Virus record (IMG/VR): IMGVR_UViG_3300028025_003492
Location: 1-37,215 of that record
Strand: one strand, 5' to 3'
Length of the DNA stretch: 37,215 bases
From: a virus
The translations under genes and the position numbers were made by a program. The notes under the pieces were generated by a model. That model did not search any database, was not told the DNA's origin, and saw only the letters and a program-made list of their open reading frames with translations. This document shows positions 1 to 13,746 of the stretch, in pieces. Position 1 is the stretch's first letter; every line of letters begins with the position of its first letter.

Positions 1-173
1 GTAAGTTCTTCATCACCTCGGAGGACAACTACGACCGAACAGCACGCCTGTTCACGATCAGGTGCATTGATGAAGCGGGGATGATTGACACCGTGGGCGA
101 GTTTCAGGCGCACGCCACTCTAGAGGACGCTATCTCGGAGTTGGTTGATGTAATGGCAGGGGCGAAGGCGTGA
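1..173 (+). CDS. C-terminal fragment of an unrecognised phage protein
   Basis: The reading frame open from base 3 to the TGA at 171-173 gives the last 56 residues of a protein whose start lies left of the window. The visible part begins KFFITSEDNYDRTARLF and ends ISELVDVMAGAKA. It is mixed alpha/beta in look, with a helical end, and has no motif I recognise. Its stop overlaps the GTG start of the next small gene (GTGA), which is the usual sign of translational coupling in this block. I infer it is real from that coupling and from the compact arrangement; function unknown. Confidence 0.6.
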   Translation, partial: KFFITSEDNYDRTARLFTIRCIDEAGMIDTVGEFQAHATLEDAISELVDVMAGAKA

Positions 174-292
174 AGGGCTACCGATTGACAAGGCGCGGGG
201 AGTTCGTGGCAGGGGTAGCCGTGGCACTGTTCATCCCGCTTGCGATTGTGTTAGGCACGGCACTGGGCGACTGGGCTACCGGCTTACTGTAA
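170..292 (+). CDS. small single-pass membrane protein (40 aa)
   Basis: A GTG start overlapping the upstream TGA opens a 40-residue frame. After a short basic N-terminus (KGYRLTRRGEF) there is one hydrophobic segment at about residues 13-34 (VAGVAVALFIPLAIVLGTAL), then a short polar tail. This is the pattern of a tiny inner-membrane protein with the N-terminus inside. It is followed 5 bases later by a GTTTAAAC palindrome and the start motif of the next gene. I do not recognise a family. The gene could be spurious because of its length, but the coupling overlap and clean membrane segment argue for it. Confidence 0.5.
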   Translation: MKGYRLTRRGEFVAGVAVALFIPLAIVLGTALGDWATGLL

Positions 293-328
293 GGTACGTT
301 TAAACACTACTAACTAGGGAGAAACACA

Positions 329-658
329 ATGAACACGAACACGTTTAAACTGGGCGATAAGATTACCCTACAAGGCGGGCTGATGGAGGTGGTGCTGACC
401 GAGGAACACTACGCGCTATCACTGGAACACGGTACGATTGTGGACATCGCGCTTAACTATGAGACGGCTGAAAACTTAATCAGTCACGGCGAGAGGCTAC
501 TAGCCCTACCGTGGGCAACTGCACCGTGGACTAAGGAAGGGCTATCTGCCCAACAGTTATTGGACAACTGGCAGGCGGTGTGTAATGACAACTGGGGGGG
601 TGGAATAATAACACCGTTTAAACATAGCGTGTCGCGTCTAGGTTCTACACTACCGTAG
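329..658 (+). CDS. unrecognised small phage protein (109 aa)
   Basis: ATG at 329 is preceded by AACTAGGGAGAAACACA, a strong ribosome site of the type shared by this block. The 109-residue product starts MNTNTFKLGDKITLQGG and looks beta-rich at the N-terminus (a small barrel-like KLGDKITLQGGLMEVVLTEE pattern), followed by an amphipathic segment with two Trp residues near 62-82. It carries GTTTAAAC copies near both ends (343 and 616), encoding TFK and PFK. Its TAG stop lies in the 3' arm of a hairpin (645-663). I do not recognise a family; it is likely a host-takeover or accessory protein, by context only. Confidence 0.75.
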   Translation: MNTNTFKLGDKITLQGGLMEVVLTEEHYALSLEHGTIVDIALNYETAENLISHGERLLALPWATAPWTKEGLSAQQLLDNWQAVCNDNWGGGIITPFKHSVSRLGSTLP

Positions 659-697
659 TGTAGTGTGGTTCCTAGTCCTGACAAGCAGGACTCTAGG
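645..697 (+). other. two tandem RNA hairpins between genes
   Basis: CTACACTA (645-652), loop CCG, TAGTGTAG (656-663) forms an 8-bp stem that contains the stop codon of the upstream gene. Ten bases on, AGTCCTG (674-680), loop ACAAG, CAGGACT (686-692) forms a second stem, extendable by CCT/AGG across a two-base bulge. Neither is followed by a T run, so neither is a standard intrinsic terminator. They sit immediately before the start-associated sequence of the gene at 715, so RNA processing, mRNA protection or translational control are the options. Confidence 0.6.
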
Positions 698-714
698 AGC
701 AAGGAGCAAACACA

Positions 715-1293
715 ATGGAAACAAGCGCAGACCAACAAACAGCACGTTTAAACGATCAGTTTGTCACTCGTATCACCGAACTGGGGCGAGAGATTGACAA
801 GTGGAAGAACGAGAACGAACTAACAGGGCACAAACTATTGGTGAGTCAACGTGAACTATGGACGTTTAAACGTAGCGTTGAGGCAAGTATCAAGGAAGCA
901 TACACAATGCAGGTGGTTGACCTTGAGCAGGCAAACAACATCCTTAGAAACCTAATGCTTAACGAGATTAGCCTTGAGTGGAACGTGAGCGGGCACTACG
1001 ACGCGACCTACCACCTACACCTAAGCGACAAGGGCTTGAGCGTGACCGTGACCGTTAATGTAGAGGTTCCCTTTACCGTAGTCGTGGAGGCTGGCGACGA
1101 GGACACCGCTACCGAGGAGACCGAGGGTATGCACCTTAGCGACCTAGAACTTGACTGGGACAACGCTGAAGTGGACATTGACAACAGTGACCTTGACATT
1201 GAGGACTTGGACGACCTCGTGCGAGCCTTGATGGATACTGAACCATACCTCACGGCTGAGATTGTGGTTGATAGTGTTGAGCAAGAAGGATAA
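715..1293 (+). CDS. unrecognised protein with coiled coil and acidic tail (192 aa)
   Basis: ATG at 715 follows a GGAGC-AAGGAGC ribosome site. Residues about 10-75 are charged and heptad-like, rich in Leu, Glu and Lys, suggesting a coiled coil. Residues about 85-125 are beta-like with repeated Val/Thr. The last third is very acidic (for example DLELDWDNAEVDIDNSDLDI), which resembles a DNA-mimic or highly charged interaction surface. GTTTAAAC copies at 746 and 864 lie in the coding region; the latter is in a 12-bp palindrome. No family is recognised. An anti-host or DNA-mimic role is only a possibility suggested by the charge. Confidence 0.75.
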   Translation: METSADQQTARLNDQFVTRITELGREIDKWKNENELTGHKLLVSQRELWTFKRSVEASIKEAYTMQVVDLEQANNILRNLMLNEISLEWNVSGHYDATYHLHLSDKGLSVTVTVNVEVPFTVVVEAGDEDTATEETEGMHLSDLELDWDNAEVDIDNSDLDIEDLDDLVRALMDTEPYLTAEIVVDSVEQEG

Positions 1294-1355
1294 CGTTTAA
1301 ACAACATCAGGTGTGATCGCCGTGAGGCAGACCACCACAAACTAGGGAGCACACA

Positions 1356-1721
1356 ATGAGCGAGACGTTTACCATTGACACGGAGATCAAGAAGCAAGAC
1401 CTATGGGAAGCGACAATGGGCTCGGGCTGGGAGTCTGACCCTGTAATCAACGCCTTTTGTACCAACGTGGAGTATTTTGGGGACACGGACTGGGACAAGA
1501 TCGGTACGTTTAAACTGACGTACTACAATGAGGATGAGGAGGAGCGAGAGATTACGCTGGGCATAGCAGACCTTGAGCGTGGGCTGAGGGTGTGTATGGA
1601 CAAGCACTACCGTCACGTCCCTTGTGGTGGGGTGATTGACACTGACTTTGATAACTGGGACGCTTGTGTAGGAGCACTCGTTATTCAGGTCTCTATCTTT
1701 GGCGAAGAAGTGTACGCATAG
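1356..1721 (+). CDS. conserved hypothetical phage protein (121 aa)
   Basis: ATG at 1356 follows AACTAGGGAGCACACA. The product begins MSETFTIDTEIKKQDLWEA and ends with CGGVIDTDFDNWDACVGALV and FGEEVY. From memory, that C-terminal D-x-W-D-x-C arrangement recurs in small proteins of aquatic and actinobacterial phages, but I know no function. Residues about 50-70 hold an acidic stretch (YYNEDEEEREITLG) that looks like a beta hairpin. One GTTTAAAC copy at 1508 encodes TFK. The gene is followed by GTTTAAAC at 1725 and the next start module. Confidence 0.7.
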   Translation: MSETFTIDTEIKKQDLWEATMGSGWESDPVINAFCTNVEYFGDTDWDKIGTFKLTYYNEDEEEREITLGIADLERGLRVCMDKHYRHVPCGGVIDTDFDNWDACVGALVIQVSIFGEEVYA

Positions 1722-1753
1722 TACGTTTAAACACAACAACTAGGGAGCATAAA

Positions 1754-1909
1754 ATGAAGTTCACTGAGAAGCAAGTTGAGAAGGCACTGGAACTAGCGGA
1801 AGAAAAGTTTGGGGGCTGGAGCATGAGCGCAAGCGATGTCATTGGGTTCATTGAGTTGGCTATCTTTGAGCCGGAAGAAGTAGAGAACTGGAGTAGGTGG
1901 GGGCGATGA
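1754..1909 (+). CDS. small helical protein (51 aa)
   Basis: The start is placed at ATG 1754 because it follows AACTAGGGAGCATAAA; an upstream in-frame start at 1664 would overlap the preceding gene and has no ribosome site. The 51 residues read MKFTEKQVEKALELAEEKFG at the start and are mostly helical and acidic, ending in ENWSRWGR. The stop overlaps the next start (ATG at 1906, TGA at 1907-1909). Function unknown. Confidence 0.65.
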   Translation: MKFTEKQVEKALELAEEKFGGWSMSASDVIGFIELAIFEPEEVENWSRWGR

Positions 1910-2043
1910 TGTTTAAACGTGGCGAACCTCAACCGTCTGGCTGGTGTCTGAGCAATAAGCACGAGGGTTGTCCGGTGTTGTTTAAACGTGAGGCTGGTAG
2001 CAAGGTGTGTCCTTGTGACTGTCACGACACGCCGGAAAACTAG
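1906..2043 (+). CDS. small Cys-rich protein with C-x-C-x-C-H motif (45 aa)
   Basis: ATG at 1906 overlaps the upstream TGA; a second ATG follows at once at 1909. The 45-residue product holds WCLSNKHEGCP and, after a basic spacer, KVCPCDCHD. Short proteins with this Cys pattern (one C-x7-C pair and a C-x-C-x-C-H cluster) are familiar from actinobacterial phages and probably bind one metal ion; no function is known. Two GTTTAAAC copies (1911 and 1980) both encode FKR, so the protein has an internal FKR repeat that comes from the DNA motif. The frame ends at TAG inside an AACTAGGG motif. Confidence 0.65.
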   Translation: MMFKRGEPQPSGWCLSNKHEGCPVLFKREAGSKVCPCDCHDTPEN

Positions 2044-2048
2044 GGTAC

Positions 2049-2076
2049 TTGACAAGTGTGATACACTGATTACATC
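2049..2076 (+). promoter_or_regulatory. candidate promoter with operator-like dyad
   Basis: TTGACA at 2049-2054 is a perfect -35 element in an intergenic space. It is followed at once by the dyad AGTGT-GAT-ACACT (2055-2067). Possible -10 elements further on (TTACAT at 2070-2075, TACATC at 2071-2076) are weak, with spacers of 15-16. The dyad within the spacer would let a dimeric repressor block the polymerase. The gene at 2099 would be first in the transcript. The weak -10 is the main doubt. Confidence 0.4.
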
Positions 2077-2098
2077 AACTAAGAAAAGGAGCAACACA

Positions 2099-2320
2099 AT
2101 GAGTAATGACATCACCACCGAGGAACTCACCCGATTGTTGGGTGAACTAATCACAAGGATGGAAGAAGAATACGAGCGCACAGTTGAGGAAGACGAAGCA
2201 CAAGAGGACGAACTGGAACTAGAAGAGGTGGAGTACAACAAGGGTTGGGCTGGTGGCATGGTCAATGGTCTGAACCACATTAGGGAGTGGCGAGATGTTA
2301 TCCTCTCCGATGAGTCCTGA
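2099..2320 (+). CDS. acidic coiled-coil protein (73 aa)
   Basis: The start is taken at ATG 2099, preceded by AAAAGGAGCAACACA; the longer in-frame extension from 1988 would run antiparallel in logic to the upstream gene and lacks a ribosome site. The 73 residues (MSNDITTEELTRLLGELITR...) are almost all helical and strongly acidic in the middle (EEDEAQEDELELEEVEY), ending in a small hydrophobic segment, GWAGGMVNGLNHI. It overlaps the next gene by 26 bases. No family recognised. Confidence 0.65.
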   Translation: MSNDITTEELTRLLGELITRMEEEYERTVEEDEAQEDELELEEVEYNKGWAGGMVNGLNHIREWRDVILSDES

Positions 2321-2483
2321 CTGGTCAGACGAGGAAGGTAGCCTACGCGAATGCTGGGAGTGTGGTGAGGTGATCGGTTGGGATGGGTGTGCTAGTGACC
2401 CCGACAACTGTGCTAGTTGCCATGCTACTGGTATCACTACAACAACTGGTGAAAAAATAATCTTCGGTTGCTGTGCCGTTTAA
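2295..2483 (+). CDS. small zinc-ribbon-like protein (62 aa)
   Basis: ATG at 2295 has AGGGAG at 2282-2287 upstream. The product contains C-x2-C (CWECGE, residues 20-23) and a second C-x2-C (CASC, about 39-42), spaced like a small zinc ribbon, and ends FGCCAV. It starts inside the upstream gene in another frame. The stop codon TAA is formed by the GTTTAAAC copy at 2478-2485, so this palindrome doubles as the gene's terminus. Metal binding is inferred from Cys spacing; function unknown. Confidence 0.6.
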   Translation: MLSSPMSPDWSDEEGSLRECWECGEVIGWDGCASDPDNCASCHATGITTTTGEKIIFGCCAV

Positions 2484-2512
2484 ACAAACTAACTAGGATA
2501 AGGAGCAAGACA

Positions 2513-2824
2513 ATGATTTACACAACGAGTAAGGATATGGACATCACTGGTACATCTTTGATGGGGTACATCAACACCACCTACGACCGTTTGGTTGAGG
2601 TGTTTGGCGAGCCCACGCATTACGAGAGTAGTGATGGGAAAGTCACGGCAGAGTGGGACATTGAGTTCACTGACGATGAAGGCGATGTTCACAAGGCTAC
2701 GGTCTATGACTGGAAGCAATACGAGGATGGTACGCCCGATGGTAAGTACGACTGGCACATCGGTGGCAGGACTGGCGAGGTTGTCGGTTTCGTACAAGAC
2801 CTAGTGTTGGGGAAGGTGTCGTGA
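2513..2824 (+). CDS. conserved hypothetical phage protein (103 aa)
   Basis: ATG at 2513 follows ATAAGGAGCAAGACA. The N-terminal region reads MIYTTSKDMDITGTSLMGYI, then LVEVFGEPTHY, AEWDIEF and ATVYDWKQYEDG. This pattern (T-S-L-x-G-Y-I, then F-G-x-P, then W-x-I-x-F, then Y-D-W-K) belongs to a small protein family that I remember as widespread in phages of aquatic bacteria, with no known function. The single domain fills the whole length. Its TGA overlaps the next ATG by one base. Confidence 0.8.
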   Translation: MIYTTSKDMDITGTSLMGYINTTYDRLVEVFGEPTHYESSDGKVTAEWDIEFTDDEGDVHKATVYDWKQYEDGTPDGKYDWHIGGRTGEVVGFVQDLVLGKVS

Positions 2825-3036
2825 TGGGTAATATGCCGGAGCGCATTAACGTAATGAAGGTTATTTCTTACGATGTCCAGGACATTGTAGAAAGGCTTAC
2901 CGAAAACGATGAAACCCTGCGCGAAGTAGAGTTGGATGAAGTTATGCAACAGATACAGGCTTGGATAGAGGAAGATTTTCCTGCCGAAATAATAAATGAC
3001 TTGATTATTCAGGACGAAAATGGAGAGGAACTGTGA
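2824..3036 (+). CDS. small acidic protein (70 aa)
   Basis: ATG at 2824 overlaps the upstream stop (TGATG); a GTG one codon earlier is an alternative. The product is 70 residues, mostly helical, with an acidic central stretch (VERLTENDETLREVELDEVM) and an amphipathic C-terminal helix (IQAWIEEDFPAEIINDLIIQ). The junction with the next gene repeats the same TGTGATGGGTA sequence as its own start. No family recognised. Confidence 0.65.
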   Translation: MGNMPERINVMKVISYDVQDIVERLTENDETLREVELDEVMQQIQAWIEEDFPAEIINDLIIQDENGEEL

Positions 3037-3248
3037 TGGGTAGGTTGATTGTGTATGCAGTGACCGTCACTGACCCCGACTACTGGGACTACCACGGTGA
3101 GGACAGGGACATCCCGCCTATGTTTAGCACACTTGATAAGGCTAGGGTTTATGCCCGTGATCTTTACAACGAGTGGTGTGATCTGAGAGAGATACCTAAT
3201 GACGAACTGGACGAGTTCGTTATTGTTGAGCCGATTGTTATTGACTAA
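3036..3248 (+). CDS. small hypothetical protein (70 aa)
   Basis: ATG at 3036 overlaps the stop of the upstream gene. The product (MGRLIVYAVTVTDPDYWDYH...) looks like a small alpha/beta fold: strand, loop rich in Asp and Tyr, helix (LDKARVYARDLYNEW), then a final strand (EFVIVEPIVI). This is the arrangement of several small phage proteins of unknown role. It is coupled to its upstream neighbour and followed by an AACTAGGGA module for the next gene. Confidence 0.65.
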   Translation: MGRLIVYAVTVTDPDYWDYHGEDRDIPPMFSTLDKARVYARDLYNEWCDLREIPNDELDEFVIVEPIVID

Positions 3249-3266
3249 CTAGGGAAGGAAAATACA

Positions 3267-3764
3267 ATGCACGTTTCACACATTATTGCTATTGAGGCAG
3301 ACGATTACGACGAGGCAGTTTCTTCTGTTGACTACTGTTTAAACGGTGGATGGGAAGGAGAAAACAACTTCCCGTGGTCTGACTGGTCTCAAGTTGGTGG
3401 TCGCTGGGTGGATGAGTTTGGCGAGGGCAAGAACGCTCTTTGCTACGCGGATGACCCTGATCGTTTTAACTCATGCGTAAAGATGATGGTTGGCAAGAGG
3501 GAAGAACAACTAGACGAGTACTTACGGATAGCAAAAAAGTCGGGGCTGGATTTAGATAACATAAAGGAGAAGGGCAAGGAAGACCACTACGCTAATGGTG
3601 TTTGGTCTTTGGGTAAGGCTATGTCTATTATTATTGGAGATAGTGCCAGTGATGCTTACTTCTATGATTTAGTAGATTACACCGAGAGCGACGAGTATCT
3701 ACAAGAACGTATCAAGACCGACCCTTCACACCAGTGGATTGTCGTAGTGGATTTCCACTTCTAA
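3267..3764 (+). CDS. hypothetical phage protein with WSDW...GGRW motif (165 aa)
   Basis: ATG at 3267 follows AACTAGGGAAGGAAAATACA. The product has PWSDWSQVGGRWVDEFGEG at about residues 36-54. The D-W-x-x-x-G-G-R-W signature recurs, as I remember it, in phage proteins of unknown function and probably forms an aromatic-rich pocket. A charged helical middle (MMVGKREEQLDEYLRIAKKS) is followed by an alpha/beta C-terminus ending WIVVVDFHF. GTTTAAAC at 3337 encodes the C-L-N at the end of the first helix. Confidence 0.7.
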   Translation: MHVSHIIAIEADDYDEAVSSVDYCLNGGWEGENNFPWSDWSQVGGRWVDEFGEGKNALCYADDPDRFNSCVKMMVGKREEQLDEYLRIAKKSGLDLDNIKEKGKEDHYANGVWSLGKAMSIIIGDSASDAYFYDLVDYTESDEYLQERIKTDPSHQWIVVVDFHF

Positions 3765-3788
3765 TCAAACACAATAAGGAGCAGAGTA

Positions 3789-4136
3789 ATGAGTACGTTT
3801 AAACAAGAGTACCCCATTGGGTGCGAAGTTTTCTACCACTTTGAGAACGACCAAGAAGGAACTAAGTTGCATGGTTATGTTTCGTTTGAGTCGTTGCAGG
3901 AGATCATGGAAGGCGATGAAGATTTCCCCGATGATGATTACCTGAGTGGCAACAACTACACACCATCAGGTGTGCGCGATGATTTCGTGGACATCTACTA
4001 TGACCACAATGAAACCACTAAGGAAAACTTTATTGAGTTTATCAGGGAGTATTCTGAAGGTAGGTTAAGTGGTGGTTCTGAGTGGAGCATTGACAACATT
4101 GTTCGGTTCGTATTCGCTAAGGGGCAACAACAATGA
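3789..4136 (+). CDS. hypothetical acidic protein (115 aa)
   Basis: ATG at 3789 follows AATAAGGAGCAGAGTA. A GTTTAAAC copy starts 8 bases into the gene (3797). The product (MSTFKQEYPIGCEVFYHFEND...) is acidic and rich in aromatic residues, with a DEDFPDDDYLSG patch at about 39-50. No catalytic motif or membrane segment is visible. The stop overlaps the next start as ATGA. Confidence 0.65.
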   Translation: MSTFKQEYPIGCEVFYHFENDQEGTKLHGYVSFESLQEIMEGDEDFPDDDYLSGNNYTPSGVRDDFVDIYYDHNETTKENFIEFIREYSEGRLSGGSEWSIDNIVRFVFAKGQQQ

Positions 4137-4330
4137 ACAAGTATGAACTGAATAACTATGATTACTGGGTTGATCTAGAGTCTGGAACTTACGGCAGTGG
4201 TGACATAGCCTTGATTAGTATGTCCTCTCTGCCACCGGCGGTACAGGACAGAATGACCACGGCGATGGACGAAGGTGACGAACAAACGGTAATCGGTATC
4301 GCTAGGTATCTATCTGGACATCGCGTCTAG
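4133..4330 (+). CDS. small hypothetical protein (65 aa)
   Basis: ATG overlaps the upstream TGA. The 65 residues start MNKYELNNYDYWVDLESG and end in a helix (TVIGIARYLSGHRV). The sequence is acidic and probably a small alpha/beta domain. No recognised family. Its TAG shares a base with the GTG of the following tiny membrane ORF. Confidence 0.6.
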   Translation: MNKYELNNYDYWVDLESGTYGSGDIALISMSSLPPAVQDRMTTAMDEGDEQTVIGIARYLSGHRV

Positions 4331-4404
4331 TGGCTGGGTTTATTGTCGGTCTAGCAATTTTATTATTACCCGTAGCAGTTGAGTATTGGAGAATAGGAAA
4401 ATGA
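4330..4404 (+). CDS. possible 24-aa membrane peptide
   Basis: A GTG overlapping the upstream TAG opens a 24-residue frame, beginning MAGFIVGLAILLLPVAVEYW and ending RIGK. It is one hydrophobic helix with a basic end, and its TGA overlaps the next ATG (4401) as ATGA. The two coupling overlaps and the single membrane helix make it plausible, but its length means it could be only a leader that carries ribosomes to the next gene. Confidence 0.4.
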   Translation: MAGFIVGLAILLLPVAVEYWRIGK

Positions 4405-4589
4405 AAGCATTGTTGAGTATGACTGAGTGCCCTACGCCTGAGCGTAAGGTTTTGATTGAGGAACTATCTGAGTTCCACACGTCCCACTACCGTGAGCCGT
4501 GGTTTAAGGTGCTGGATTGCACCACTGGTATCAGGGTGTATGCCTCGGTGCAGGAGTTGTCGTTGAGCGGGGTGGGTTCAGGTGTCTGA
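4401..4589 (+). CDS. small hypothetical protein (62 aa)
   Basis: The start is taken at ATG 4401, with GGAGA at 4388-4392 upstream, in preference to a TTG at 4386. The product, MKALLSMTECPTPERKVLIE..., contains a Glu-rich helix then a beta segment (WFKVLDCTTGIRVYAS). The last 8 bases overlap the GTG start of the WhiB gene. No family recognised. Confidence 0.6.
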   Translation: MKALLSMTECPTPERKVLIEELSEFHTSHYREPWFKVLDCTTGIRVYASVQELSLSGVGSGV

Positions 4590-4986
4590 GACCTATGTAG
4601 CACAGAGAGACAGTGATCGTGAGTGGTGGGATCGTGCGTCATGCGCCCGTGGATACTCCGACTGGTGGGATGTGGACTTCCACCAACACGAAGCAACACT
4701 TAGTTTAAACAACGTCAAGGGTATCGTGATGTGTGTGCAGTGCCCCGTAAGGAACGAGTGTTTAAACGATGCACTGAAGCATGGTGGTGAACACACCATC
4801 CGAGCAGGCTACACACCTAAGCAACAGAACGAACTAATCAAGAACGGACACGCTTGGTCAAGGTCTATCCGTATCGTGGAAAAGATGCTAACCTTGTCAC
4901 CTGACGATGAGATTGTGGCTGAGAAGTCGCATGAGATGCTGATTAACAGCGCGAAAAGAGTGCAAGGTAAATGGATAGATACCTAA
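4582..4986 (+). CDS. whiB: WhiB-family transcriptional regulator
   Basis: This is a WhiB-like (Wbl) protein, a class that binds a [4Fe-4S] cluster and docks on the principal sigma factor to redirect transcription. The four cluster ligands are C21, C51, C54 and C60 (C-X29-C-X2-C-X5-C). The core includes the typical CVQCPVRNECLNDAL, followed by the turn (HTIRAGYT) where the family usually has G-[IV]-W-G-G. The start is GTG at 4582, overlapping the upstream gene by 8 bases. The C-terminal 50 residues are basic and helical, probably for DNA contact. Two GTTTAAAC copies (4704, 4760) lie in the gene, the latter between the Cys residues. It overlaps a small HTH gene. Phage WhiB proteins are known to interfere with host WhiB function, so host takeover or self-regulation is likely. 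This gene is the main evidence for an actinobacterial host. Confidence 0.93.
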   Translation: MSETYVAQRDSDREWWDRASCARGYSDWWDVDFHQHEATLSLNNVKGIVMCVQCPVRNECLNDALKHGGEHTIRAGYTPKQQNELIKNGHAWSRSIRIVEKMLTLSPDDEIVAEKSHEMLINSAKRVQGKWIDT

Positions 4987-5147
4987 GCAAGCGTGAGACT
5001 ATTGACGAAGCAGAGTTCCTGCTTAGTATGCGCGTGTCTCACTGGCAGGTAGCCGACCAACTTGGGCTACAACTGAAAACATTGGAAACCTACTGGCGCA
5101 AGGTGAAGGGAGTGAGGGCACCGTGGCTACCGAGCATGGAGAAATAG
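4971..5147 (+). CDS. small helix-turn-helix protein (58 aa)
   Basis: ATG at 4971 starts 16 bases inside the whiB gene, in another frame. The 58 residues begin MDRYLSKRETIDEAEFLLSM and include HWQVADQLGLQLKTLETYWR (about 24-43), a clear helix-turn-helix pattern in which VADQLGL forms the first helix and turn and LKTLETYWRKV the recognition helix. It resembles the HTH of small phage regulators and excisionase-like proteins. Translational coupling to whiB suggests a joint regulatory role. DNA target unknown; the GTTTAAAC palindrome is one candidate, with no direct evidence. Confidence 0.65.
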   Translation: MDRYLSKRETIDEAEFLLSMRVSHWQVADQLGLQLKTLETYWRKVKGVRAPWLPSMEK

Positions 5148-5281
5148 AAGAAGTGCAAGAGTGCTGGGCATCCTCATCGTCTGGCTTGTGGGACAAGCAT
5201 GGGGGCTGGGGTCATGGGTCAGATGGCTGTGACAGACCGGCTGAACCAGGTTCTAGGTACTGTTATGAACACCGAGGGTAG
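5123..5281 (+). CDS. small Cys/His protein, possible zinc binder (52 aa)
   Basis: GTG at 5123 starts inside the upstream HTH gene. The product contains a Ser-rich stretch, a His/Gly/Trp segment (DKHGGWGHGSDG), and ends CDRPAEPGSRYCYEHRG. The C-x-R-P-...-G-x-R-Y-C-x-x-H end is a small metal-binding motif common in actinobacterial proteins. It ends 6 bases before the next start. Real coding is supported by that motif and by packing; function unknown. Confidence 0.55.
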   Translation: MATEHGEIEEVQECWASSSSGLWDKHGGWGHGSDGCDRPAEPGSRYCYEHRG

Positions 5282-5287
5282 GGATCT

Positions 5288-5806
5288 ATGAACCAGAAGA
5301 ATGAGATACGGGTTGGCTTTGCTATCTTCGTTGCCATTGTCATCTTGATGACGATTGTTGAGATTATTCTGGTAGGTAGGGCTGAGCAGAACATACAACC
5401 AGAACAAACAACTAAGCAAAGTGTTCGTTCGTTCGTTGTGCCGAAGGATACTAAGCCTACCGCTGGTAAGGCTTTACCCGTTAGGAAGCCACAGAAGCGC
5501 ATCTCACGGTCTAAGGTACGCACCGTGAACGTGGACTCCAAGGCTAAGCGTTATGCCCTTACGTTGGTGTCTAGCCCTGCTCAGATGGCTTGCCTGCTCC
5601 CATTGTGGGAGAAGGAGTCCGGCTGGTCACCCACATCGGACAATCCTACGTCCTCAGCCTACGGTATCCCACAAATCTTGGGGCTTGAGGCTAGGACAGG
5701 GGACGATTACCGAGCACAAGTGCGGGCTGGGCTGGGCTACATCAAGCATAGGTATGGCACGCCCTGTCGGGCGTGGGCGTTCTGGCAGAACAATCGGTGG
5801 TACTGA
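5288..5806 (+). CDS. membrane-anchored transglycosylase-like (lysozyme-fold) protein
   Basis: ATG at 5288 follows GGTAGGGATCT. The 172-residue product has one membrane segment at about 9-29 (hydrophobic, after a basic N-terminus), a Pro/Lys-rich linker (50-85), and a lysozyme-fold domain at about 86-172. The domain shows WEKESGW (107-113; E110 is the expected catalytic acid), NPTSSAYGIPQI (119-130) and GLGYIKHRYG with AFWQNNRWY at the end. This is the pattern of the small actinobacterial transglycosylase domain that cleaves peptidoglycan glycan strands. A signal-anchor would place it on the outer face of the membrane. It lies in the early accessory block, far from the endolysin and holin at 13.8-14.8 kb. 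Lysis aid, superinfection exclusion or secreted wall remodelling are possible. Confidence 0.8.
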   Translation: MNQKNEIRVGFAIFVAIVILMTIVEIILVGRAEQNIQPEQTTKQSVRSFVVPKDTKPTAGKALPVRKPQKRISRSKVRTVNVDSKAKRYALTLVSSPAQMACLLPLWEKESGWSPTSDNPTSSAYGIPQILGLEARTGDDYRAQVRAGLGYIKHRYGTPCRAWAFWQNNRWY

Positions 5807-6024
5807 TGTATTGGTCTTTCGCCCTTGCTGCCGGTTCTATGACTGGCTTGTGGATTGCTGGGAAGCGACCCCTGCAAGGCTGGGTGGTACTGCTGGGAAT
5901 GGAAGTGTTGTGGTGCTGGTACTCAGTAGCAACCAAACAGTACGGGCTGGGTATCCTATGCTTAGCCTATGGAATAATCTACTTTGCCAACACGATCAGA
6001 GAGTGGAGGAAGCGTGAGCAATAG
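5806..6024 (+). CDS. small multi-pass membrane protein (72 aa)
   Basis: ATG at 5806 overlaps the TGA of the transglycosylase gene, so the two are coupled. Three hydrophobic segments are visible (about 3-18, 25-44 and 47-64), separated by short polar turns (GKRPLQG and ATKQYG), with a charged tail IREWRKREQ. The W-x-x-G-K/R-x-x-x-x-G-W layout is familiar from membrane proteins of actinobacterial phages with no known function. Because it follows a wall-cutting enzyme, a holin-like or export role is possible; sequence alone does not prove this. Confidence 0.7.
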   Translation: MYWSFALAAGSMTGLWIAGKRPLQGWVVLLGMEVLWCWYSVATKQYGLGILCLAYGIIYFANTIREWRKREQ

Positions 6025-6187
6025 GGGTGAAGGGTACAAGTACCAACTGGTACTGACCAGAGATGGGCGCAAGTGCGCCACCATGTACGGTAATGATTTT
6101 GATGAGATCACAGAAGTAAAAGTGAACGCCACATTTGATGGTTACCACGCTGAACTCACTGAACTTGACGTAGAAGATAAGAAGTAA
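6014..6187 (+). CDS. small hypothetical protein (57 aa)
   Basis: The start is GTG at 6014, which follows GTGGAGGAAGC and lies in the last codons of the upstream gene; an in-frame ATG at 5984 is further inside it and less likely. The product (SNRGEGYKYQLVLTRDGR...) looks like a small all-beta domain ending in an acidic helix. It is the last gene of the plus-strand block, with a tandem pair of TAA-type stops before the hairpin region. Confidence 0.55.
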   Translation: MSNRGEGYKYQLVLTRDGRKCATMYGNDFDEITEVKVNATFDGYHAELTELDVEDKK

Positions 6188-6201
6188 TAACCTAAAGATG
6201 T

Positions 6202-6272
6202 TGCCGGAACTCACTGCCCCCTAGTCGGTGAACCAACGGCACGCCACACCAAACTTTACCTCTCTGGTGTGG
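6202..6272 (+). other. structured 3' region: nested and adjacent hairpins
   Basis: TGCCG (6202-6206) pairs with CGGCA (6237-6241) and encloses TCACTG (6211-6216) paired with CGGTGA (6226-6231, one G-U). Next comes CCACACCA (6244-6251) paired with TGGTGTGG (6265-6272). With the terminator at 6282-6308 this gives a compact string of hairpins at the end of the plus-strand transcript. It could stabilise the mRNA 3' end or be released as a small RNA. No known RNA family is recognised. Confidence 0.5.
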
Positions 6273-6281
6273 ACACAGAAG

Positions 6282-6312
6282 AACCCCAGTCCTGCTCCGG
6301 CTGGGGTTTTTC
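6282..6312 (+). terminator. intrinsic terminator ending the plus-strand block
   Basis: AACCCCAG (6282-6289), 11-base loop, CTGGGGTT (6301-6308) followed by TTTTC. A strong stem and a T run in the plus direction. It lies between two converging gene blocks. In the minus direction the stem is followed by CTTCTGTG, a poor run, so it acts mainly on plus-strand transcripts. A GTTTAAAC copy follows at 6316. Confidence 0.85.
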
Positions 6313-6327
6313 TATGTTTAAACGAGT

Positions 6328-8959: not shown

Positions 8960-9158
8960 AATGCTCCTGTTCCCTAACTATTGAAATCGAATCGCCCTTA
9001 ACACCGCAAGTGAAGCAGTAGTAGAGCCCCTTATCCGGGTTGACACACCCACTGTTGTGCCTATCGCCGTGGAATACACACTTGATTGACTTGTCACCAC
9101 CATGATCGGGTACTTTATCAAACCCGTAGTGGATTAAAACTTTACTTATCGTGCTCAT
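8796..9158 (-). CDS. DNA primase, CHC2 zinc-finger part
   Basis: The product has the CHC2 zinc finger of primases: C27-x2-H30 (CVFHGDRHNSG), then C48-x2-C51 (YYCFTCGVKGD). This domain senses template sequence for priming. Residues 52-96 continue as the helical segment normally joining the zinc domain to the polymerase domain (DFSTAVRLVEEITGASY). The frame then leaves primase homology and becomes basic (SARKGTGRASHKQLPAWKRG) over the overlap with the Toprim gene. The relation of frames (Toprim is +1) leaves open a fused product. Confidence 0.85.
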   Translation of the reverse strand: MSTISKVLIHYGFDKVPDHGGDKSIKCVFHGDRHNSGCVNPDKGLYYCFTCGVKGDSISIVREQEHCDFSTAVRLVEEITGASYESLREAVVREGSFLSARKGTGRASHKQLPAWKRGSA

Positions 9159-9349
9159 AGGATGCGGAACACTGGCTCACAAGGGTCTCCACCCTCATCG
9201 TATTCTTCCCGTTCTTCATCAGTCAGATAATCGTAGCCACCATCATGGGTAGCGCAGTATTGCTTACTGATCCAACCCTTGCTGATACCAAAGGTAACCC
9301 AGTCGGCCCTATCGTTCCACTCTTTAGTGGTCATTGCGTTACTGTTCAT
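9155..9349 (-). CDS. small conserved phage protein (64 aa)
   Basis: The product ends in the pattern ISKGWISKQYCATHDGGYDY and DPCEPVFRIL. I recall this C-A-T-H-D-G-G motif with a final D-P-C as common in small actinobacterial phage proteins; the Cys/His residues could bind a metal. ATG at 9349 overlaps the upstream gene by 11 bases, and an ATG five codons later is possible. A GTTTAAAC copy (9351-9358) lies directly upstream of the start. It overlaps the primase zinc-finger start by four bases. Function unknown. Confidence 0.7.
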   Translation of the reverse strand: MNSNAMTTKEWNDRADWVTFGISKGWISKQYCATHDGGYDYLTDEEREEYDEGGDPCEPVFRIL

Positions 9350-9725
9350 TGTTTAAACCGCTCATTAGATGTAGTAGTTGATGCAAAGGTATCACGCACA
9401 TCGCGTCAAGGGTATTCCGTTGCCTCATCTTACGGACAACAACACCAAACACCCTGCCCCTGTTCCCTCTAGCCTCAGACCAGTTGCCTGCTTCAAGTTC
9501 TGCCTGACGTAACCAGTTGGCCCACTCAGGTGTCTTAACATCCTTAGCCTCAAGCACAAGAACCGTGTGCCCCAGATCAATGTGAAGATCACCTTCGTCT
9601 TTAGCACCAGTTTGAGCGGTGCGTTCCACTGCCCAACCGTTCTGTGCCATACCAGTCCAGCCACGAATGTGGCCGAGCAGGTCTGTTTCAAACTTGGTTC
9701 CTTTACGCTTATTCGCTGAACTCAT
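9339..9725 (-). CDS. PD-(D/E)XK endonuclease, Holliday-junction-resolvase-like
   Basis: The 128-residue product has the conserved order of resolvase-type nucleases: E13 in KRKGTKFETDLL, D46 in GAKDEGDLHI, and E59-x-K61 in VLVLEAKDVK, with a following helix WANWLRQAELEAGN. These are the metal-binding PD-(D/E)XK residues. The size and the K-R-K-G-T-x-F-E start fit phage homologues of archaeal Hjc-type resolvases. It probably resolves branched replication or packaging intermediates. It overlaps the helicase stop as ATGA. Confidence 0.78.
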   Translation of the reverse strand: MSSANKRKGTKFETDLLGHIRGWTGMAQNGWAVERTAQTGAKDEGDLHIDLGHTVLVLEAKDVKTPEWANWLRQAELEAGNWSEARGNRGRVFGVVVRKMRQRNTLDAMCVIPLHQLLHLMSGLNNEQ

Positions 9726-11868: not shown

Positions 11869-12709
11869 TGGTGTAGATTGGGTCAAACTCTTTTGCAAGT
11901 GAACCATTAACTGCGACACAGTAGTTGGCTACACCGCAACCTTTACACATTGACGTAACCCTAGCAGGAAAAAGTTCTGCCTTGATAGCCCGATCAACAT
12001 TAACAATCGTATCAGTCAGTGAGTCTAGGTCTGTCTGCCTGAACGTGGTGGGTATGGATAGTTCACCCTTGCGGGTCATAAAGAAAGCACCCAGCGATGG
12101 TGTTGGCAGGGACAACTTCTCCATAGCAAACGCGTACAGGGCTAGTTGTTGGAACGTGTCTGGTGTTCGTGCGCCAGTCTTGTGGTCAATGACCATGAGT
12201 TCACCAGACGGCAACTCCATGATGAGGTCTGCGTAACCCTTGATACGAACGTCACCAAAGTCCACGTTCAGTTCAATCTCACAGGCAAGGTTCCCCGCAA
12301 AGGTGGGTACTGACCAGCCTTCGTTGATGCGGTCATCAAGCCACTGTTTAAACAGCGTGATCTGACGTAGGCCCTCGTCAATCCAGAACGTGTAGTCCTC
12401 GGCGTTAGGGTTGGCCTTGGTCTTTCGACCGCCAGTACGCCACTCTTTCCGGCTGACACCACTGCGTTCCTCAAGGGAATCAATTTCCTTTTGGAATGCG
12501 TTCTTCCAGCGTTCTGGATCTAACTCCAGGTTGCTTCCCCAACTGTCGTCGTCTTTGGTGATTGCTTCAAGGCAAGCATGAACAGCACTACCAGCGGCTA
12601 GGTACCATGCTGGGGTTTCGGGTACCTTCACAATGCGTGCCAACTGGTAGGACTTGGGGCAGGATAGGTACGATGTTACTTGCGAGTAAGACCTGTGACC
12701 AACGCTCAT
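11852..12709 (-). CDS. RecB/Cas4-like nuclease with iron-sulfur cluster motif
   Basis: The 285-residue product has the PD-(D/E)XK signature of RecB-family nucleases: H44 in GSAVHACLE, D161 in GYADLI, D175-x-K177 in VIDHKTG, and the QLALYA helix motif. Four Cys, C17 in SCPKS and C255/C258/C264 in MCKGCGVANYC, are spaced like the [4Fe-4S] cluster of Cas4 and AddB nucleases. It probably degrades DNA ends 5'-3' or 3'-5' for recombination. It is in one operon with the RHH, helicase and resolvase genes. No CRISPR array is visible, so a defence role is not indicated. Confidence 0.85.
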   Translation of the reverse strand: MSVGHRSYSQVTSYLSCPKSYQLARIVKVPETPAWYLAAGSAVHACLEAITKDDDSWGSNLELDPERWKNAFQKEIDSLEERSGVSRKEWRTGGRKTKANPNAEDYTFWIDEGLRQITLFKQWLDDRINEGWSVPTFAGNLACEIELNVDFGDVRIKGYADLIMELPSGELMVIDHKTGARTPDTFQQLALYAFAMEKLSLPTPSLGAFFMTRKGELSIPTTFRQTDLDSLTDTIVNVDRAIKAELFPARVTSMCKGCGVANYCVAVNGSLAKEFDPIYTNKEGK

Positions 12710-13303: not shown

Positions 13304-13426
13304 ATGTCTAAACTGGTAAAATGTTCTGCCTGCGAAAACTATGCTTCCGTATGGTTCGCAACCTTTGATGGAGAGGAAGTTCCCCTGTGTCAAGACCACC
13401 AACCAAGTCTGGAAGTAAGCAAGTAA
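13304..13426 (+). CDS. small zinc-finger-like peptide (40 aa)
   Basis: ATG at 13304 begins a 40-residue product: MSKLVKCSACENYASVWFAT, then DGEEVPLCQDHQPSLEVSK. C-x2-C (7, 10) and C-x2-H are spaced like a single small zinc knuckle. The ribosome site is weak. It is the first gene of a two-gene plus-strand operon, overlaps the next gene by 40 bases and is transcribed against all its neighbours. Function unknown. Confidence 0.6.
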   Translation: MSKLVKCSACENYASVWFATFDGEEVPLCQDHQPSLEVSK

Positions 13427-13746
13427 CCCGACCACAAACTGTGTACGTTAGTCCGTACACTTGGGGCATCAAGTACTCCAAGGCTGAGGTGCTCAAACAC
13501 CACCCAACAGGGGACGCTTGTGGTTCCTGTGACCTAGAGTCCATGACCATTGCTGTTGATCCAGGTAAGTCCGAGGATTACGCACGGGTCACCTTGCTGC
13601 ACGAGATCCTGCACGCAGCGATCCGTTCCTCTGATCCCAACATTGAGTCCGATGCTGAGGAGATGGCTGTCGCTTCCATGACCGGCCCACTGCTAGCCAT
13701 GCTCAGGGACAACCCAGAAGTAGTGGCATACCTAATAGCCAAGTAG
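13387..13746 (+). CDS. small HExxH metalloprotein (possible peptidase)
   Basis: GTG at 13387 has GAGAGGAAG upstream. The 119 residues contain LLHEILHAAI (71-80): H72-E73-x-x-H76 is the zinc site of metallopeptidases, and E91/E92 in SDAEEMA is a possible third ligand. A preceding C45-x2-C48 pair may bind zinc as well. The C-terminus, MLRDNPEVVAYLIAK, recurs in small phage metalloproteins of this type, from memory. The fold resembles ImmA/SprT-like minimal peptidases but the target is unknown. It may process host regulators or phage proteins. Confidence 0.65.
   Translation: MSRPPTKSGSKQVTRPQTVYVSPYTWGIKYSKAEVLKHHPTGDACGSCDLESMTIAVDPGKSEDYARVTLLHEILHAAIRSSDPNIESDAEEMAVASMTGPLLAMLRDNPEVVAYLIAK

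Follow-up and report, generated by a model that had tools for sequence, protein, structure and literature searches.

What reads the short palindrome that crowds the left end of IMG/VR virus record IMGVR_UViG_3300028025_003492, and what does it do for the phage? The window, as the whole stretch analysed is called here, is a linear virus record of 37,215 bp, and the element in question is the exact octamer GTTTAAAC. The original prediction, made from the letters of the window, took its copies for a phage-wide control or replication site, possibly operators of a dimeric regulator encoded nearby. Sequence comparisons indicate that the octamer is under strong selection and tracks one protein family across 13 phage clusters. 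It is probably the recognition word of a phage-borne SprT-like system, with many exact 8-bp sites on the phage's own genome.

Results

Excess of the octamer

Exact copies of GTTTAAAC number 18 in the window, against a mean of 0.84 and a maximum of 3 in 100 dinucleotide shuffles, so that the anticipated excess over composition is present. Counting also confirmed the predicted distribution: 15 copies lie in 298-4767 (10 in the first 2 kb and 5 more up to 4.8 kb), three more follow at 6316, 9351 and 12346, and there are none across the last 25 kb. None of the other 8-bp palindromes in the window has more than 2 copies. As had been noticed, copies are located both inside genes and between them, they use two coding frames (the two that avoid TAA), and one, at 2478, forms a stop codon. 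Codon and amino-acid bias could be excluded as their source, since 10 copies are in genes and 3000 codon shuffles with protein and codon usage fixed gave a mean of 0.28 and a maximum of 3. Sequences one mismatch away show no enrichment (9 in the whole window against 19.2 expected), which marks GTTTAAAC as an all-or-none word, and every TTTAAA in window 1-6300 falls within a copy of it. The proposal that selection acts at the DNA level and that the sites are used is thus supported.

A pattern scan of IMG/VR, which required two neighbouring copies of GTTTAAAC and was therefore conditioned on the word, gave 119 stretches, of which 72 showed strong enrichment. Whole 63-kb phages hold 43-54 copies each against 0-4 of the reversed control, and the excess is present in phages across GC 0.32-0.7. 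Sister phages have the sites throughout the genome, chiefly within genes, and several of them at fairly regular intervals, an arrangement unlike that of operators. In pairwise alignments of a 51-contig cluster, the share of GTTTAAAC sites retained without any change was 62% at 65-70% DNA identity (control octamers 3.3%), 86% at 75-80% identity (controls 11%) and 92% at 85-90% identity (controls 36%). Four relatives of the big cluster, Planktothrix phage Pag-Yong1, DSL-LC04, 023Pt_psg01 and HTVC027P, showed no octamer excess.

Association with a SprT-like gene

One family was common to most of the unrelated enriched groups, a SprT-like protein of about 200 residues with a C-terminal zinc ribbon (PHROG 6361, PF10263), and it was absent from 12 non-enriched relatives. 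Because the pattern scan had been conditioned on the word, two unconditioned tests were made on loci picked by gene. The 80 viral loci picked by the SprT-like protein alone hold 530 copies of GTTTAAAC, against 12.3 expected under a second-order Markov model and 14 copies of the reversed control; 78 of them are enriched. Another 78 loci, picked by an exonuclease and having no SprT, hold 18 copies against 11.8, and none is enriched. The phages with SprT-like genes form 13 nucleotide-level clusters, and no family other than the SprT-like one occurs in as many as four of them. The hosts of these phages span Actinobacteria and alpha-, beta- and gammaproteobacteria. Sequenced phage records with such genes number over a hundred.

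GTTTAAAC is the most over-represented 8-bp palindrome in R5C (17 copies), Alexa (8), Mica (7), PT1 (6) and Mano (4). A second octamer, GTGTAAAC, is the most over-represented one in Marky (35), KeAlii (23), Zeta1847 (22), Caron (17), Emotion (17) and 4A (13), and actinophages with a SprT-like gene carry it in place of GTTTAAAC. One or both octamers exceed the reversed control in all 13 clusters, only barely in two single-contig ones. Both are enriched in the same phages of one cluster (G019; L294-L301 and relatives), with 273 GTTTAAAC and 142 GTGTAAAC.

In 8 of 10 named phages, which represent about four lineages, the SprT start codon is preceded by an octamer at a distance of at most 62 bp, a position that suggests autoregulation. 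In the SprT-picked loci, sites are densest over the first 3 kb or so downstream of SprT and thin out with distance. Spacing is more even than random in Marky (P 0.0004), KeAlii (0.007), Caron (0.025) and R5C (0.03). Sites outside genes number 11 against 2.3 expected in KeAlii, which has a serine integrase gene, and 14 against 3.0 in Marky; in six cases among the named phages a site provides a GTG-TAA stop.

The SprT-like protein

Of five members compared with both libraries, all matched PHROG 6361; PF10263 was above cutoff in L171 (39.4 bits) and G024 (34.9) and below it in L168, L195 and L138. The HExxH metalloprotease motif is present in 116 of the 126 scored SprT loci, and the 10 loci that lack it still hold 1.6 sites per kb. 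Celaena and Bordetella CN2 have SprT proteins without the Q-x-T-R-M/CxxC signature and carry 0 and 1 octamer copies. Site presence thus follows the zinc-ribbon signature and not HExxH, which makes the zinc ribbon the likely reader of the octamer.

The AlphaFold model of the protein (pLDDT 87.8) contains only a SprT domain and a C-terminal zinc ribbon, with no N-terminal domain for binding single-stranded DNA. Residues 6-125 match human SPRTN (6mdw; Z 8.2, 24% identity over 102 residues), and the ribbon at 155-198 has a weak similarity to MCM zinc ribbons (Z 3.8). Neither Foldseek alone, run on the model, nor a PDB profile search with the SprT alignment produced a significant hit, and PADLOC placed the SprT-like proteins in no defence family. 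No residue accounted convincingly for GTT versus GTG specificity.

The octamer in bacteria

Scans for three neighbouring copies in 84,980 species genomes returned essentially only tandem or CRISPR-like arrays, and in 22 whole genomes GTTTAAAC was mostly about as frequent as the reversed-word control or rarer; these scans have little sensitivity to densities under about one site per 3 kb. In CRISPR-like arrays of Phormidium and Hydrocoleum the word lies within the repeats (L268 2606-6571, 54 copies; L225 3659-6872, 44 copies). Two viral contigs carry short tandem arrays with GTTTAAAC each 16-17 or 29 bp (L180 6546-6767; L206 6526-6794).

The window's phage and its relatives

The window encodes TerL, a portal protein, a DnaB-like helicase, a primase, exonucleases, RusA, WhiB and a sigma-like protein. 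With proteins about 32-43% identical to theirs, its phage falls close to the Streptomyces phages of the Beephvirinae, and it has closer metagenomic relatives; no near-identical DNA was found among named phages. The Beephvirinae relatives have no SprT-like gene and 0 or 1 GTGTAAAC, and relatives at roughly 70-94% carry 0 or 1 GTTTAAAC. No convincing substitute over-represented word was found in the window's non-enriched relatives.

Three of these relatives bear on the regulators proposed as readers. WhiB is 90% identical to that of the window in G001 and G006 and 87% in L018; all three also have the window's sigma/HTH region in common, and all lack GTTTAAAC. WhiB is thus not the reader, and the idea of operators for a dimeric regulator of the window (WhiB, sigma, HTH) loses its basis. 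That relatives with conserved genes lack the sites counts, taken literally, against a control site; yet the sites track the SprT-like gene instead. What stands of the control-site interpretation is use at the DNA level, and what falls is the window-encoded dimeric regulator. No gene was found in support of the other suggested roles, origin or partition sites or a modification enzyme.

The closest fragment, L011, is 82-97% identical to the window in DNA. Another fragment, L160 (1-4893), is actinophage-like, has WhiB and sigma-like genes and holds 20 GTTTAAAC in 4.9 kb, one of them within a terminator-like hairpin at 1183.

Octamer sites along the window

The leftmost copy, at 298-305, is upstream of ORF 329-658 (open reading frame); L016 reads TTTTAGAA there. 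Within this ORF, copies lie near the start (343-350, codons T-F-K-L) and close to the 3' end (616-623). ORF 715-1293 contains 746-753 (R-L-N) and 864-871, the core of the predicted 12-bp palindrome at 862-873, and 1295-1302 is directly past its stop. Copy 1508-1515 is in ORF 1356-1721, and 1725-1732 falls between that ORF and ORF 1754-1909. The small ORF 1909-2043 has one copy at its start (1911-1918, M-F-K-R) and a second at 1980-1987, and 2478-2485 provides the TAA stop of ORF 2295-2483.

The next five copies, on the + arm and at the terminator, are retained in L011: 3337-3344 in ORF 3267-3764, 3797-3804 at codons 3-5 of ORF 3789-4136, 4703-4710 and 4760-4767 in the WhiB gene, and 6316-6323 past the terminator between two convergent gene arms. 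At 4703 the window reads AGT TTA AAC and other relatives AGC CTG AAC, a synonymous creation of GTTTAAAC; the copy at 4760 is absent from G001, G006 and L018. L011 lacks the last two copies. That at 9351-9358, on the edge of ORF 9155-9349, has one mismatch in L011 and is retained in L012; that at 12346-12353, in an exonuclease gene, is the core of the other predicted 12-bp palindrome, 12344-12355, and is absent in relatives. Several relatives do not have the small ORF 9155-9349 itself (the alignment breaks at 9157/9355), as though a cassette had been inserted at window 9155-9358.

Palindromes of 6 bp other than TTTAAA are nearly absent from window 1-6300 (4 seen against about 78 expected), which also has zero AGCT, GGCC, TCGA and TATA; elsewhere in the genome the avoidance is less marked, with 0.28-0.36 of expectation. 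Opposite the late genes, on the + strand at 13387-13746, is a possible zincin-like ORF of 119 residues (HEILH) with weak DUF6782/IrrE similarity, in a region conserved in relatives without the octamer.

Discussion

The SprT-like protein, a metalloprotease fold joined to a C-terminal zinc ribbon, would bind GTTTAAAC, or GTGTAAAC in other lineages. The ribbon may contact the octamer directly, probably as a dimer, and is predicted to bind CGTGTAAACG or CGTTTAAACG and not one-mismatch versions. Through the site upstream of its start codon the protein may control its own gene. The sites would hold it on phage DNA, where its protease domain, or the bound protein alone, may keep host DNA-acting proteins off; the action of ArdC on plasmid DNA offers a precedent. 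Such tethering to exclude host proteins is suggested as the most likely role, a weakly supported one, and the fuller proposal, that an unmodified 8-bp word serves phages as a tag on their DNA, from which a sequence-specific, tethered SprT-like protease clears host proteins in cis, is put forward tentatively.

Several observations weigh against this account. The SprT-like gene was not found on the window contig, nor on fragments L011 and L160. Fisher's test for the SprT-octamer association gives 1e-43, a value that ignores lineage dependence and, with the 80 loci in few nucleotide clusters, overstates independence. In the two large metagenomic clusters a site lies within 150 bp upstream of the start of the SprT match in only 3 of 80 cases. 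Aligned octamers between the window and L011 are too few to reveal excess retention (5/7 versus 7/10). Members without HExxH speak against a purely proteolytic role.

As to the missing gene, the contig is not closed and begins inside the truncated first ORF (3-170), so sequence to the left of position 1 is missing; no relatives extending left past this edge were found. The window's SprT-like gene is predicted on the + strand just left of position 1, past the contig end (region 1-172 marks the predicted position). The gradient in the window resembles the fall in density downstream of SprT in the picked loci, and a gene placed there would explain why density falls from left to right.

The main alternative role for the sites is genome organisation: the SprT-like protein may read them for organisation, replication, recombination or packaging and not for evading defence. 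This is a tentative possibility. Sites are genome-wide and evener than random in Marky, KeAlii, Caron and R5C, and members without HExxH retain them, but in the SprT-picked loci and the window they crowd near SprT or one end and do not cover the genome; moreover, we know of no role of SprT proteins in any of these processes. It is rather doubtful that SprT is a passenger and some other co-inherited factor the reader. The evidence is correlative and the window contig lacks SprT, but no other family occurs in four of the 13 clusters, and the sites follow the state of the SprT zinc-ribbon signature. An operator or stoperator role, in which transcription is shut down by a phage repressor bound at the many sites, as happens in cluster A mycobacteriophages, is unlikely. 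Copies dispersed through the genome, the extra intergenic sites of KeAlii and Marky, the site upstream of SprT and the KeAlii integrase would suit it; however, the clusters share the SprT-like family and no HTH repressor, sites are mostly in genes and on both strands, the window has no degenerate copies, and R5C, reported lytic (PMC5454422), carries 17 sites. Stoperators, moreover, are asymmetric 13-bp sites that lie mostly between genes and point in one direction (PMC3029335), whereas the word here is an exact 8-bp palindrome.

A host-driven word is very improbable, whether it be a highly iterated palindrome of the HIP1 type, a site resembling Chi or an imitation of host DNA. It would fit a word common to many unrelated phages and an exact 8-mer, as is HIP1 GCGATCGC, but the bacterial scans gave no dispersed enrichment down to about one site per 3 kb, for which the host-genome HIP idea was rejected, and the phage hosts are diverse. 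Codon bias, composition or chance deserves next to no credence: most sites do lie within genes, but the codon-preserving shuffles (at most 3 against 10) refute it, and the excess spans the whole GC range.

Known systems offer partial parallels. The stoperators of cluster A mycobacteriophages (L5, Bxb1) are likewise short conserved words in 24-34 dispersed copies, read by a phage protein and varying among lineages, but an HTH immunity repressor of temperate phages reads them; the octamer is 8-bp and all-or-none, mostly in genes, linked to a SprT-like gene and found also in a lytic phage. HIP1 of cyanobacteria, too, is an 8-bp palindrome repeated exactly and very many times, and its distribution coincides with that of one protein, a CGATCG methyltransferase (PMC4390886). 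It occurs in host genomes, whereas the octamer is in phage genomes only and its partner is no methyltransferase; the enriched phages had no other family in common, methyltransferases not having been sought by profile. ArdC of plasmid R388, an antirestriction protein of SprT fold, joins a SprT/Spartan-like metalloprotease domain to a DNA-binding part on a mobile element, and its conjugation function is kept with a mutated active site (PMC7213743). Unlike the phage proteins, with their C-terminal zinc ribbon and 8-bp word, ArdC binds single-stranded DNA via an N-terminal domain and has no known dispersed sites. SPRTN/Spartan and bacterial SprT (PF10263) share the fold and HExxH but are not known as sequence-specific; the phage members carry a Q-x-T-R-M-x-K...C-x-x-C-G-Y zinc ribbon, some without HExxH.

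To our knowledge phage SprT-like genes have no known role. No description of the SprT-octamer pairing was found in the literature searched, nothing relevant appeared for GTTTAAAC, GTTTACAC or GTGTAAAC with phage or for SprT with phage, and the two papers on R5C that were consulted do not mention the octamer. The SprT-like mycobacteriophage gene LHTSCC 83, a possible member of the PHROG 6361 family, is bactericidal and produces filaments in M. smegmatis (PMC7474061).

The pairing with an exact dispersed word gives the SprT-like family a testable target site for direct binding. If the sites tether a protease, self and host DNA would be told apart without DNA modification. Many phage lineages, each independently, would then carry a self-recognition system based on a sequence tag and not on modified bases.

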